From NCBI GenBank assembly GCA_023134135.1, contig JAGLVB010000013.1, forward strand, positions 1 to 51,880: a DNA stretch of 51,880 nt. The letters run 5' to 3'. The notes under the pieces are model-generated. The model saw only the letters and a list, made by a program, of their open reading frames with translations. It searched no databases and was not told the DNA's origin. The position numbers and the translations under genes are program-made. Each line of letters starts with the position of its first letter. Positions within the stretch are counted from its first letter, which is position 1. The stretch is from Candidatus Aenigmatarchaeota archaeon. GTDB taxonomy: Archaea; Aenigmatarchaeota; Aenigmatarchaeia; QMZS01. Positions 9,162-17,713 of the stretch are shown here, piece by piece.

Positions 9162-9518
9162 ATGTTTTCAGAAAGAAAGTTAATTAGATTATCCTTACTT
9201 ACAATAATAATTGGTTTAACCGGACTATATTTTATAGGTCTATTTGTAGACCCTGAATTTGTTGAAATTGATCATATTGACGAAAATATGGCAGGAAAAG
9301 TTATTTCAACAGAAGGAACAATCTCAAAAATTGCTTTTATTGAAAAATCAAAAACTTTGTTTTTGGATATTAAAGGAGATGAAAAAACCCTGAAAATTAT
9401 TATTTTTAATTCTGAAAGAGATCTCTTTAAGAAAGGTGATGAAATTATCCTTAGTGGAGAGCTGGCAACTTATAAAGGAAAATTGGAATTAATCGCTAGA
9501 GATATTGAGAAGATTTAG
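9162..9518 (+). CDS. Membrane-anchored OB-fold protein
   Basis: N-terminal TM helix followed by OB-like domain (MAGKVISTEGTISKI...FKKGDEIILSGELATYKGKLELIA). Confidence 0.65.
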   Translation: MFSERKLIRLSLLTIIIGLTGLYFIGLFVDPEFVEIDHIDENMAGKVISTEGTISKIAFIEKSKTLFLDIKGDEKTLKIIIFNSERDLFKKGDEIILSGELATYKGKLELIARDIEKI

Positions 9519-13089: not shown

Positions 13090-13304
13090 AAATATTAAAT
13101 ATTATAAAAATTTAAGTATTTTGTTGTTGCACTAAACACTCAAAAACCAAATGTTTTTGGTGCGCAAAAATCTCTGATTTTTGATTATTCAATCCTTTAG
13201 AGAGTTTAACAAAGTATTAAGAGATTCCGAAATCTTGCAGATTTTCCATTTAAATCGAGTTATATTCAACTTTTTTAATTTAAAATTTGTGTTTGGAATT
13301 GGGT

Positions 13305-13319
13305 TATTACACTGTAATA
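13305..13319. promoter_or_regulatory. Inverted repeat TATTACA-C-TGTAATA
   Basis: Perfect inverted repeat (extends to TTATTACA-C-TGTAATAA, 13304-13320); same motif upstream of mcm and cdc6. Confidence 0.5.
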
Positions 13320-13474: not shown

Positions 13475-13771
13475 ATGGTAAGACCGCAGGATAAAAAGAA
13501 AATAAGTAAGTTATTAAAAATTTTGATTAAACATCCGGAAGGATTGTGGTTGAGGCAAATTTCAAAAGACACTAAAATTGCGCCTTCAACAGTGCATTAT
13601 TATGTAAACCAGACTTTATCTGAAATAATAGAAAATATTGGGGTAAAAGATAAAAAAGGAAAATATTTCGGACTGAGGATTATAAGATTAAAACCAAAAA
13701 TTATAGAAAATGCTGAAAAGGGGGGTTTGGATAATATATTTCATTTTCTCAAATTATCCAAAAAAATATGA
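13475..13771 (+). CDS. Small winged-helix DNA-binding protein
   Basis: 98 aa; KKISKLLKILIKHPEGLWLRQISKDTKIAPSTVHYYVNQTL is HTH-like (LRQISKDTKIAPSTVHYYV). Confidence 0.7.
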   Translation: MVRPQDKKKISKLLKILIKHPEGLWLRQISKDTKIAPSTVHYYVNQTLSEIIENIGVKDKKGKYFGLRIIRLKPKIIENAEKGGLDNIFHFLKLSKKI

Positions 13772-13895
13772 TTTTTAATAGAAAATAATATAAATATGGT
13801 GTGAAGTTCACGTGAACCTAATATTAAAACGTGAACTTAAAAAAGGAGAAATGAATATTATATGAAATTGATAAAAAGATTATAAATTATATTTG

Positions 13896-13911
13896 AAGTT
13901 CACGTGAACTT
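13896..13911. repeat. 16-nt perfect palindrome AAGTTCACGTGAACTT
   Basis: Read directly. Confidence 0.95.
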
Positions 13912-13930
13912 GGGTTTCTTATATTAATTT

Positions 13931-13979
13931 ATGTGAACTTAAATCCTAAATATATTGGTGTTTAAAGCCAAAACAATAA
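13931..13979 (+). repeat. 49-bp direct repeat, copy 1
   Basis: ATGTGAACTTAAATCCTAAATATATTGGTGTTTAAAGCCAAAACAATAA; 4 mismatches to copy at 14476-14524. Confidence 0.9.
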
Positions 13980-14128
13980 TTTTATATAAATTTTAAGTAA
14001 GTTCACGTGAACATCCTCTTAGAGTGTGAACTTGGTGTGAACTTGATAAAGTAAATTAGATGATAATTTGAAGTTTATATGAACAAAAAATATTAATGTG
14101 AATTAAATATAAACTTAATAAATTATAT

Positions 14129-14150
14129 CTCAAGTTCACGTGAACTTGAG
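14129..14150. repeat. 22-nt perfect palindrome CTCAAGTTCACGTGAACTTGAG
   Basis: Read directly; longest version of the array palindrome. Confidence 0.95.
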
Positions 14151-14381
14151 TTGTGTATGTGAACTTAACGTGAACTTAAAAATAGAAATATGAATTTGAA
14201 ATGAAATTCACATGAACAAAGAATACTAACGTGAACTTAAAATAAATATATTGATTTTGCGTGAACCAAACATGAATTTAGTATTTAGTTCACGTGAACT
14301 TGATTCCCGAACGTGAACTTAACGTGAACTAACCAAACCATAAAATCTAAAGTAAAACCATAATTTAACAAACCACCAAAC

Positions 14382-14420
14382 AATTTTTTTATATATTATT
14401 TAAATAACTATATATTTATT
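14382..14420. other. AT-only tract, candidate DNA-unwinding element
   Basis: aattttttt atatattatt taaataacta tatatttatt, a single C in 39 nt, inside the largest gap (154 bp) of the array. Confidence 0.4.
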
Positions 14421-14475
14421 GTACACAATAAAATCCCTGAAGTTCACGTGAACAAAGAATACAAACGTGAACTTA

Positions 14476-14524
14476 ATGTGAACTTAAATCCTAAAAATCT
14501 TGGTGTTTAAAGCCAAAATAAGAA
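14476..14524 (+). repeat. 49-bp direct repeat, copy 2
   Basis: ATGTGAACTTAAATCCTAAAAATCTTGGTGTTTAAAGCCAAAATAAGAA. Confidence 0.9.
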
Positions 14525-14575
14525 GTTCTCCTCAGCAAGATAATATTGTGTGAAGTTCACATGAACTTAAATATT

Positions 14576-15634
14576 ATGGGAGAAATAGAAAATTATAGAA
14601 ATTGGTTGGAAAAACAAGGTCTATCTAAAAATCCTTTCACACTTGAAATTAATCCCTCACTTCTTGTTGGATATGAAAAACAAATAACAAACCTTCTAAA
14701 AAATATAGAACAAAAACAAAAATTAATATTAATCAGCGGCGCAACCGGAAGCGGAAAAACAAGCTTGATTACTTATTTAATTTCCAAAAATAATAAGTTC
14801 ATTTTCCTGAGCAAGCCCCCAAGACAAACATCTCAGTTAATTAATATCTCAGATAAGTTTATTAAAGAATTGCCTTTATTTTCAAGAATATTTATAAAAA
14901 AACCAAAAAAAATTGAAGATGTCCCGCAATTTTTGAACAATATTATAAAAGAACCTAAAGTGCTCTATATAGATGAAATACATGAAGCAAGTATTGAGGT
15001 ATTGGAATGGTTTAGAATAATATCAGATCAGGTTCAAAATCTATCAATAATTTTCTCAGGTCTCCCAATATTTGATGAAATATTGACAAAAAACCTGGAA
15101 ACCCTTAAAAAAAGAATTATTGAAAAAATAGAACTTAATGCTCTGACAAAAGAAGAAACAGAACAATTAATAAGAAAAAGAATTGAATTTGTTGGGGGGA
15201 AGGGTATAAATCCATTCACACCAGAAACTATAGATTATATATATAATAGAACAGGTGGATTTCCAAGGGATATTATAATTCTATGTAATAAATTGTTAAA
15301 TACAACCGCAGAAAATAATACTGAATATATAGATATAAATTTAATAAAAGAAAAACCTGATAAAATTGAAAAAGTAAATGATTTTGGAAAACTCACAAAT
15401 TTATCTGTAAAACAGAAAAAAATAATAGAACTTATCCTTGAACACGAACCAATAGCGCCAAATAAACTTATTGAATTTACAACAGAATATCCCTCAGAAA
15501 AACATGCTTTGAGAGCAGTAAATAATTTATTAAAAAGACTTATATTTGAAGGTTATGTTGAAAGGAAAAAAACCGGAAAAACATATATTTATAATCTTAC
15601 ACCCTCAACACGAACTTTATTAATAAAATCTTAG
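14576..15634 (+). CDS. AAA+ ATPase (ExeA/Cdc6-like STAND/AAA) with C-terminal winged helix
   Basis: Track ORF 14546 starts at TTG; more likely ATG 14576 (MGEIENYRNWLEKQGLSKNPFTLEINPSLLVG). Walker A ISGATGSGKTSLIT, Walker B VLYIDEIHEA, sensor-2-like GGFPRDIIILCNKLL, C-terminal wHTH. Confidence 0.82.
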   Translation: MGEIENYRNWLEKQGLSKNPFTLEINPSLLVGYEKQITNLLKNIEQKQKLILISGATGSGKTSLITYLISKNNKFIFLSKPPRQTSQLINISDKFIKELPLFSRIFIKKPKKIEDVPQFLNNIIKEPKVLYIDEIHEASIEVLEWFRIISDQVQNLSIIFSGLPIFDEILTKNLETLKKRIIEKIELNALTKEETEQLIRKRIEFVGGKGINPFTPETIDYIYNRTGGFPRDIIILCNKLLNTTAENNTEYIDINLIKEKPDKIEKVNDFGKLTNLSVKQKKIIELILEHEPIAPNKLIEFTTEYPSEKHALRAVNNLLKRLIFEGYVERKKTGKTYIYNLTPSTRTLLIKS

Positions 15635-15797: not shown

Positions 15798-15885
15798 ATT
15801 ATCAATAAATATAATTATAATAAGTCCAGTGGAAATGAGGGGGTCACGTTACCATACTTAATAATATATTCTCTTGTCGAGAAGT

Positions 15886-15914: not shown

Positions 15915-17111
15915 ATGCAGGAGAAACTTAGAAATTATTTTTCAGAATATCTGAATAAAGAAAGTTTTTTTATTGACAAAAAATTATTAACTCATAGCTA
16001 TGTGCCAGAAGAGATATTACACCGTGATGAACAAATTTCAACAATCGCAAAAATTCTCGCTCCTTCTTTGAAATTAGAACAACCTTCAAATTTATTTATT
16101 TATGGCACCACAGGAACAGGAAAATCAGTGGCCATAAAATATATATTTAATGAAATGCTCGCGGCGAATACTTCAAATTTTAATGCGATTTATGTTAATT
16201 GTAAATTAAGGAAGGTGTCTGATACAGAATATAGGATGCTGGCATATATCCTAAGAGAACTGAATTTCAAGGTTCCGGACACAGGTCTGCCAACAGAAAC
16301 ATTATATACTAAATTATTTGAATTAGTGGATTCAAAAAAACAGATAATTATTCTGGCTTTGGATGAACTTGATGTTTTAATAAATAAAATAGGTGATGAG
16401 ATTTTATATAACCTGACAAGGATAAATTCAGAATTAGTAAATTCAAAAATAAGTATTATTGGAATTTCAAATGATATTTCATTTACTGATAAATTAGACC
16501 CAAGAGTAAAAAGTTCTTTATCCGAGGAAGAAATTATTTTCCCTCCTTATAATGCCCCCCAATTAAATGATATAATTGAACAAAGGGCAAATAAAGCGCT
16601 TAAACAGGATGTTTATTCTGAAGGTGTTATAAGAAAATGCGCTGCCATAGCCGCTCAGGAGCAGGGAGATGCAAGGAGGGCTTTGGATATGATAAGAGTT
16701 GCTGCGGAAATTGCTGAGAGGAATGATGAAATAAAAATCACTGAAAAACATGTGGGTTTGGCAGAACAAAAACTTGAATTAGACCGCGTTGTGGAATTGG
16801 CAAAAATGCAGCCAAGACATTCACAAGTAACTCTTTATTCAATATTGAAATTATTTGAAAAAAGCGAGGATAATATATTAACAGGAGATGTTTATGAAAT
16901 TTATACTCAATTATGCAAGAGAAATGGGTATAGAATTTTAACACAAAGAAGAATATCTGATTTAATTTCAGAACTTAATATGTTAGGTATAATTTCAACA
17001 AAAGTTATTTCAAAAGGGAGGTATGGGAGGACAAGGGAAATCAGGCTCGCAATTGCAAAAAAACCCTTTGATATTTTAAAAAACCATTTTTCCACATTAT
17101 TTGAAATATGA
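15915..17111 (+). CDS. cdc6: Orc1/Cdc6 replication initiator
   Basis: Track ORF begins 15756, but the first 53 residues look noncoding; MQEKLRNYFSEYLNKESFFIDKKLLTHSYVPEEILHRDEQI then Walker A IYGTTGTGKSVAIKYI, Walker B ILALDELDVL, sensor 2 GDARRALDMIRVAAEIAE. Confidence 0.95.
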   Translation: MQEKLRNYFSEYLNKESFFIDKKLLTHSYVPEEILHRDEQISTIAKILAPSLKLEQPSNLFIYGTTGTGKSVAIKYIFNEMLAANTSNFNAIYVNCKLRKVSDTEYRMLAYILRELNFKVPDTGLPTETLYTKLFELVDSKKQIIILALDELDVLINKIGDEILYNLTRINSELVNSKISIIGISNDISFTDKLDPRVKSSLSEEEIIFPPYNAPQLNDIIEQRANKALKQDVYSEGVIRKCAAIAAQEQGDARRALDMIRVAAEIAERNDEIKITEKHVGLAEQKLELDRVVELAKMQPRHSQVTLYSILKLFEKSEDNILTGDVYEIYTQLCKRNGYRILTQRRISDLISELNMLGIISTKVISKGRYGRTREIRLAIAKKPFDILKNHFSTLFEI

Positions 17112-17713
17112 TATTAACATATGAAAAAATCCGGGAATTAAAACAACTTGAAAAACAAGATAAATTACAGGATTTACCTGAAAATTTTTCAATAGCTGTT
17201 GCTGAATACATTAATTTGAAGAAAGGGTCAGACGAAGAGGTTTCAGCAAAGAGTTTAATTAAGAGTTTGTATGATTTAAGAAAGAAGAAAATTATTAATT
17301 TAGCGGGATTATTTTACAAAACAGATAAAATTCCAGAAAATATAGAGGGTATGGAGGAAGAATTATATTTAAATACAGTAGAAATAATGAGAAAATATAA
17401 CATTTCTTTTGAAGGATTATTTAATAAACAATCTGAAACCGAAAGAACAGAATCAAAAAATAATAAACAATATTCTCAGAGCACAAAAACTAAAAATATG
17501 TTTAATTCTCTACAAATTAAAGAAGATACCGCAAACAAACCTTATGATAATAATTCACAAGAAAATAAATTAAAGGTTGTATTTTTATCAGATATACCTG
17601 AAATCATAACCCCTACAGGGGAAATATGTTCTTTCAAAAAAGAAGAAGAAAAGGAACTTAACACCGAATTTGCAATACAGCTTAAAGAACAGGGGTTTTG
17701 TAGATTTAAATAA
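17108..17713 (+). CDS. Archaeal GINS subunit (Gins51/Gins15-like)
   Basis: N-terminal LPENFSIAVAEYI, LRKKKIINLAGL; C-terminal B-domain VVFLSDIPEIITPTGEICSFKKEEEKELNTEFAIQLKEQGF. ATG overlaps the cdc6 stop. Confidence 0.8.
   Translation: MILTYEKIRELKQLEKQDKLQDLPENFSIAVAEYINLKKGSDEEVSAKSLIKSLYDLRKKKIINLAGLFYKTDKIPENIEGMEEELYLNTVEIMRKYNISFEGLFNKQSETERTESKNNKQYSQSTKTKNMFNSLQIKEDTANKPYDNNSQENKLKVVFLSDIPEIITPTGEICSFKKEEEKELNTEFAIQLKEQGFCRFK

Follow-up and report, generated by a model that had tools for sequence, protein, structure and literature searches.

An AAA+ ATPase with a C-terminal winged helix and the array of TTCAC/GTGAA half-sites lying directly upstream of its gene form, by sequence comparison, a phylum-wide and anciently linked unit in the Aenigmatarchaeota, with the array as the conserved companion. 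The array is a second, origin-linked site, near the Orc1/ORB replication origin and apart from it, and our leading reading, to which a probability of roughly 0.4 is given, is that the ATPase binds it cooperatively as an origin-proximal, centromere-like complex of the parS or SegB type. The finding is broader than proposed in an earlier note on this DNA, since the ATPase-array pair is spread through the phylum and occupies a place close to, though distinct from, the Orc1 origin. The window, i.e., the whole stretch of DNA analysed, is a complete contig of 51,880 nucleotides within a 986-kb assembly that is 73% complete.

To our knowledge, chromosome separation in archaea is largely unknown beyond a few models, and few DPANN archaea can be cultured. 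The ATPase is a candidate for the missing means by which these uncultured tiny archaea organise or separate their chromosomes. Its locus offers a protein and a DNA site that are both defined, as well as comparative data from across the phylum, so that its function can be tested in vitro and in a surrogate host.

Sequence and predicted fold of the ATPase

The open reading frame at 14576-15634 of the forward strand is intact and real, and its 352-residue product has a 90% identical orthologue in the Candidatus Aenigmatarchaeota MAG CSMAG_516. Alternative in-frame start codons are found upstream at 14546 and 14561, with the last palindrome of the array (14555-14566) lying across this stretch. The description of the product as an AAA+ ATPase with a C-terminal winged helix is borne out by the intact frame, by an AlphaFold2 model with a mean pLDDT of 91.9, and by both Pfam and fold matches, and its Walker A motif, GATGSGKT, is of the AAA+ type. 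Upon alignment of 46 orthologues, the KPP, DExxE and GxPR motifs are invariant, together with the winged-helix residues R313, N316 and N317, which fall within the recognition-helix region.

As far as sequence profiles go, the ATPase belongs with the AAA_22/ExeA-like ATPases and not with Orc1/Cdc6. Its best sequence-profile match is TIGR03015 (XrtA/PEP-CTERM ATPase, ExeA-like), at 91.4 bits and short of the curated cut-off of 324.5 bits, while the Orc1/Cdc6 profile TIGR02928 scores 16.7 bits, against a cut-off of 181.3 bits, and aligns to the P-loop residues 26-71 only. In a Pfam scan with E values up to 1, neither Cdc6_lid (PF22703) nor Cdc6_C (PF09079) was among the best 25 of the 38 matches to the ATPase, the last of those 25 being at 0.032; by the same scan, the product of the adjacent cdc6 gene matched these two domains with 80 and 100 bits.

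On the contrary, the predicted fold follows the Orc1 plan, with an AAA+ core and then a C-terminal winged helix. Foldseek/VIA-align comparison of the model gave 7jgr, 2qby and 1w5t as best matches (Z 19.1, rmsd 7.2, 314 residues), with A. pernix ORC2 (Z 19.1), P. aerophilum Cdc6 and ORC subunits leading the whole-length fold matches. Such an rmsd over 314 residues indicates that the domain arrangement of the ATPase differs from that of its Orc-like matches. When the AAA+ core is taken by itself, MuB and TnsC align to it at 3.5-3.7 Å. The earlier view that the protein is nearer to ExeA-type ATPases than to Orc1/Cdc6 is thus right for the sequence (91 versus 16.7 bits) and does not extend to the predicted fold, which is nonetheless Orc1-like. 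Of the families tested (Orc1/Cdc6, ParABS, SegAB and TIGR03015), none includes the ATPase.

Distribution and inheritance of the ATPase

By tblastn, the ATPase was detected in 114 of the 156 phylum genomes, including 32 of the 39 good ones, and mostly in single copy; counting full-length proteins and clear fragments only, it is present in 111 of 156. Outside the phylum, a profile search added 14 genomes with a clear orthologue (E below 1e-100), and the ATPase thus occurs in other archaeal families as well. This range does not fit the lineage-specific protein that had been suggested. Descent of the ATPase is essentially vertical, as its tree requires 12 label changes for 12 families, with a minimum of 11 and 62 upon shuffling (family labels such as f2, f9 or f12 are working labels of this analysis and not published names). 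Several families live without any ATPase, so that its function must be replaceable.

Among genomes at least 90% complete, 31 hold both the ATPase and a full-length Orc1, one the ATPase only, none Orc1 only, and seven neither. Families f12, f13, f14 and f28 have neither of them and keep a shorter Orc paralogue of ~350 aa scoring about 200-270 bits, no long Orc1/Cdc6 (>300 bits) being observed there. The joint loss of both proteins is suggestive, with few independent losses behind the co-occurrence.

Regarding particular genomes, G107 was rejected as a closed genome, its contig C1 carrying many runs of N and two full ATPase loci (at 255 and 462 kb; L070 and L136) that belong to different families and clades; it is probably a chimeric assembly. 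A full-length remote homologue with 25% identity is encoded close to a TFB gene on a haloarchaeal megaplasmid (Halobacterium noricense NZ_CP089469.1, 279828-280967; L219).

The half-site array upstream of the ATPase gene

In the window, the array extends over 13801-14566 and contains 29 TTCAC/GTGAA half-sites, often paired as TTCACGTGAA, its composite unit being a palindrome plus GTGAA at +19 and +30. Six exact copies of GTTCACGTGAAC lie at 13806-14453, with 10 sites at up to two mismatches versus 0.77 expected, and this exact 12-mer is confined to the array, having no other copy in the 986-kb assembly. Half-sites number 36.7 per kb in the array (29 in 0.79 kb), as compared to 1.6 per kb outside it in the window. 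The last palindrome, GTTCACATGAAC (14555-14566), ends 9 bp before the ATPase start and is likely a feedback site on the ATPase gene; at 32 of 100 loci, the ATPase start has a near-palindrome no farther than 75 bp away.

Comparison across genomes agrees with the association between ATPase and array that the earlier note put forward, and extends it through the phylum and beyond. The ~0.7 kb upstream of the ATPase is the richest in half-sites of all 700-bp segments of the locus in 86 of 96 testable cases, while the same test applied as a control to other gene starts was passed by 3 of 280. In 125 kb of DNA upstream of ATPase genes, 179 copies of exact TTCACGTGAA were counted, as opposed to 22 in the 1,248 kb around it, and genome-wide counts are of 0-15 copies, most of them, among the places listed, at the ATPase locus. 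Families without the ATPase rarely hold the motif: in f12-f15, which have no clear ATPase, TTCACGTGAA is absent from 19 of 23 genomes and present in one or two copies in the others. Outside the phylum, where loci were assessed by motif positions only, TTCACGTGAA or GTGAANTTCAC lies within 2.5 kb of 9 of the 14 orthologues, with 0.17 expected (P = 2e-15, presuming an independence of genomes that does not fully hold).

In most families, sites are moreover phased with the DNA helix. Distances from one palindrome to the next gather at multiples of 10.4 bp (73 spacings, R = 0.77), and half-sites of the same orientation in the array families give R = 0.64 (n = 2,773 pairs), with controls at 0.01-0.12. 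Four families, in which palindromes are also weak, depart from this pattern: their half-sites show weak phasing in f29/f31/f32 (R = 0.21) and none in f9 (R = 0.11). When thpR is the immediate divergent neighbour (37 genes), half-sites amount to 13.5 per kb inside thpR, whereas the 41 thpR genes located elsewhere have 3.8 per kb (p = 1e-8, a value that ignores kinship, related families not being independent). Since the half-sites continue into this coding sequence, the site is set by adjacency to the ATPase and not by mere intergenic space.

A literature search returned no paper containing GTTCACGTGAAC, and those with TTCACGTGAA and "archae" concern, by their titles, only bacterial parS, origin finding or gut bacteria; among the titles listed, none was of a DPANN partition or origin paper on such an array.

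Position relative to the Orc1 replication origin

A canonical ORB, TCCAGTGGAAATGAGGGGG, is located at 15825-15843 of the forward strand, just upstream of orc1/cdc6 and separate from the array. Upon reading by eye, similar elements precede orc1 in L038, L040, L041, G103 and G107, and more degenerate ones were seen in G074 and in f9 loci. ORBs are placed at orc1 and not at the array, usually 5-60 kb away from it. With an ORB beside orc1 and another motif at the array, the Orc1 origin is distinct from the ATPase array, and the array as the Orc1/ORB origin itself was rejected.

Both sites are nonetheless neighbours. Of 41 pairs of ATPase and orc1 on one contig, 39 are no more than 60 kb apart (median 16.5 kb), a figure biased by short contigs; on contigs of at least 100 kb, the same applies to 17 of 19 (combined p = 6e-4). 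The exceptions, G117 and G127, are both single-contig genomes with orc1 294-379 kb off (294 kb in G117). Outside the phylum, the four orthologues sharing a contig with orc1 have it ~10 (G167), 10 (G209), 33 (G249) and 19 kb (G359) away. This proximity could be old gene order. In the window, the ATPase is followed by the origin marker orc1/cdc6 (15915-17111, forward strand, 398 aa) and by a weak match to GINS (Sld5/Gins23; 17108-17713, forward strand), the arrangement being as previously described. Such direct adjacency of cdc6 and GINS is found in the window's genus only and was discarded as a conserved feature; orthologues consistently away from arrays and from cdc6 were not observed, arrays being kept and orc1 usually within 60 kb.

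Cumulative GC skew in the window reaches its minimum at 13147, 0.65 kb from the array, which is suggestive as an origin marker. Skew is too weak to place the origin in G103, G074 and G107, its mean over 101 ATPase loci displays no clear sign switch beyond gene orientation, and no distinctive AT-rich stretch was seen at the array in G103 and G074. TTACAC(T/A)GTAA palindromes were observed at 13307 and 15785 of the window, and the related TATAACANTGTTATA beside the ORB, upstream of orc1, in G103, G107, L109, L112, L125 and L128; they would constitute a further conserved origin element.

Comparison with known systems

With Orc1/Cdc6 and its ORBs, the system shares an AAA+ domain followed by a C-terminal winged helix, an Orc-like predicted fold, and a gene beside its own repeat array in the same chromosomal neighbourhood. 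It differs from them in the array motif, TTCAC/GTGAA as opposed to the ORB TCCANTGGAA plus G-run that is present separately, and in a protein that scores 16.7 against 181.3 bits, with neither Cdc6_C nor Cdc6_lid among its best 25 of 38 Pfam matches. The Orc1-2 protein of Sulfolobus, a non-initiator Orc1 that regulates damage-responsive promoters (PMC9738581), is likewise an AAA+/winged-helix DNA-binding regulator, as the ATPase would putatively be; on the contrary, Orc1-2 belongs to Orc1 and acts globally, whereas the putative sites of the ATPase are concentrated at one locus. The TIGR03015/ExeA/MuB/TnsC group provides the best profile match (91 bits) and a similar AAA+ core fold, but the ATPase remains far under the 324.5-bit cut-off and has a wHTH.

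Bacterial parS sites have the consensus TGTTTCACGTGAAACA (PMC7383237) and are usually near the origin (PMC7333895). The core TTCACGTGAA of the array is identical to the centre of this consensus, and both systems present one origin-proximal locus with several sites. Agreement is nevertheless limited to the core decamer and the parS 16-mer is not matched, the parS flanks being avoided at array palindromes (T before the core in 12 and A after it in 26 of 173 sites). ParB (PF02195) was not found in the window's genome, whose assembly is 73% complete, or elsewhere among the 11 genomes that make up its family, ParB_N being present in 17 of the 156 phylum genomes, and the classical Walker A of the ATPase is unlike the deviant one of ParA. 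Considering that ParB_N is absent from the window's family and that the parS flanks are avoided, ParB was rejected as the reader of the core. A bacterial parS core without ParB would be either a striking convergence or a hint of constraint on such sites.

In Sulfolobales, the palindromic sites of SegB are grouped in front of the segAB operon and within the oriC1 region (PMC12284271), which resembles the arrangement here described. Neither protein nor motif agrees, however, SegB being a ribbon-helix-helix protein that reads TCTAGA(G/C)TCTAGA, and SegA a ParA-type protein with the deviant Walker A that the GATGSGKT of the ATPase is not.

A putative centromere-like complex and its alternatives

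Considering that (i) the array persists without a strong small winged-helix protein and (ii) ParB is excluded, the ATPase is the best candidate reader of the array; we infer this role, as well as its oligomerisation and a segregation output. Its winged helix would read the TTCAC/GTGAA half-sites, whose placement on one helix face would favour cooperative binding of many ATPase copies, and the AAA+ domain, with its Orc1/MuB/TnsC-like fold, might then build an ATP-dependent nucleoprotein complex over 0.5-1 kb. The array would be a single landmark maintained near, yet separate from, the Orc1/ORB origin, and might organise or separate newly replicated origins as parS/ParB or SegB sites do, while the bound array would feed back on the ATPase's own promoter. 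Search for a dedicated partner ATPase or adaptor identified none, AAA_31 (ParA-like) matching an uninformative 154 of 156 genomes. Also speaking against the centromere-like reading are the remote orc1 of G117 and G127, the poor palindromes and phasing of f9, f29, f31 and f32, and the families that do without the ATPase. More tentatively, the locus may represent a new archaeal partition system in which one AAA+ ATPase of the ExeA/MuB class, equipped with its own winged helix, both reads a phased, parS-like array and supplies the ATP-driven activity; it is also only tentatively that the array near the Orc1 origin, as spread through the Aenigmatarchaeota and several other archaeal families, may be seen as the site of such a system.

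Two alternatives assign the array to the ATPase with another output. The ATPase might be an accessory or second initiator, an Orc1-like factor that would bind the array to license or control regional replication besides Orc1 at the ORB. Its AAA+/wHTH plan, the Orc1/Cdc6 and ORC structures among its best whole-length fold matches, its co-occurrence with full-length Orc1, the skew minimum of the window, and the fact that genes of initiators commonly adjoin their own repeats (PMC4010727) are in line with this possibility, which we regard as doubtful: a canonical ORB beside orc1 makes another origin a few kb away unneeded, the arrays of G103 and G074 lack a special AT-rich stretch, skew in these genomes is too weak for origin placement, and few independent losses underlie the co-occurrence. 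The dedicated initiator at the array that had been envisaged appears accordingly less likely on these sequence grounds, the ORB origin being separate, and a partition role, the other option then raised, leads. Somewhat more doubtful still is that the array is a large operator by which the ATPase or the small wHTH protein regulates its own and the divergent gene, with no chromosome-scale role. Sites upstream of the ATPase gene, near-palindromes close to its start included, would also be expected under autoregulation, and AAA+/winged-helix proteins that are pure regulators, such as the Sulfolobus Orc1-2 (PMC9738581), do exist. Yet up to 11 exact palindromes over 1 kb (L042), half-sites running on through the thpR coding sequence, and conservation of the array across families, when operators usually turn over fast, count against an operator, and linkage to orc1 is left unexplained.

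Two further alternatives concern the proteins themselves. Upstream of the array, at 13475-13771 of the forward strand, the window encodes a small winged-helix protein of 98 aa which, like the ATPase, is basic. In roughly one out of two families of the phylum, a strong orthologue of it adjoins the ATPase, with the array lying in between in many families, so that this protein might read the array and recruit the ATPase as a motor. We consider this improbable, because arrays are retained in f2, f5, f7 and f22, where no strong wHTH gene adjoins the ATPase, exact palindromes are few in f24 and f27 despite their wHTH, and in some families a different repeat, CTCACAT, is nearer to the wHTH gene. Finally, a MuB/TnsC/TniB-like ATPase captured near the origin as a transposon or plasmid relic would account for the alignment of the AAA+ core to MuB and TnsC and for remote homologues on plasmids. 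Its vertical inheritance in single copy across the phylum, the lack of any named transposase among inspected neighbours, and viral contigs holding almost nothing similar make this very improbable, and no support was found for a mobile-element origin.

Gene neighbourhood

No exosortase, secretion or transposase genes were recognised in the ATPase neighbourhoods inspected. Neighbours at four inspected loci (L046, L052, L109 and L112) and in the window resemble housekeeping genes, a statement that refers to those loci only. As named by eye, the conserved ones at the four loci include a ThpR/LigT RNA ligase, a small OB-fold protein, DnaG, a PRC-barrel protein, RadA, RPA and a histone, which by such naming would form an information-processing cluster.

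In some families, the stretch that separates the small wHTH gene from the array is enriched ~7-10 fold in the CTCACAT/ATGTGAG repeat, as seen in L052 (-720 to -420 of the ATPase) and L153 (G103:C1, 665.5-667 kb). This repeat, which forms no cluster in the window, is possibly the site of the small wHTH protein. At 9162-9518, ~5 kb upstream of the ATPase, the window encodes a small OB-fold-like protein, which in other families is found beside thpR and the ATPase.
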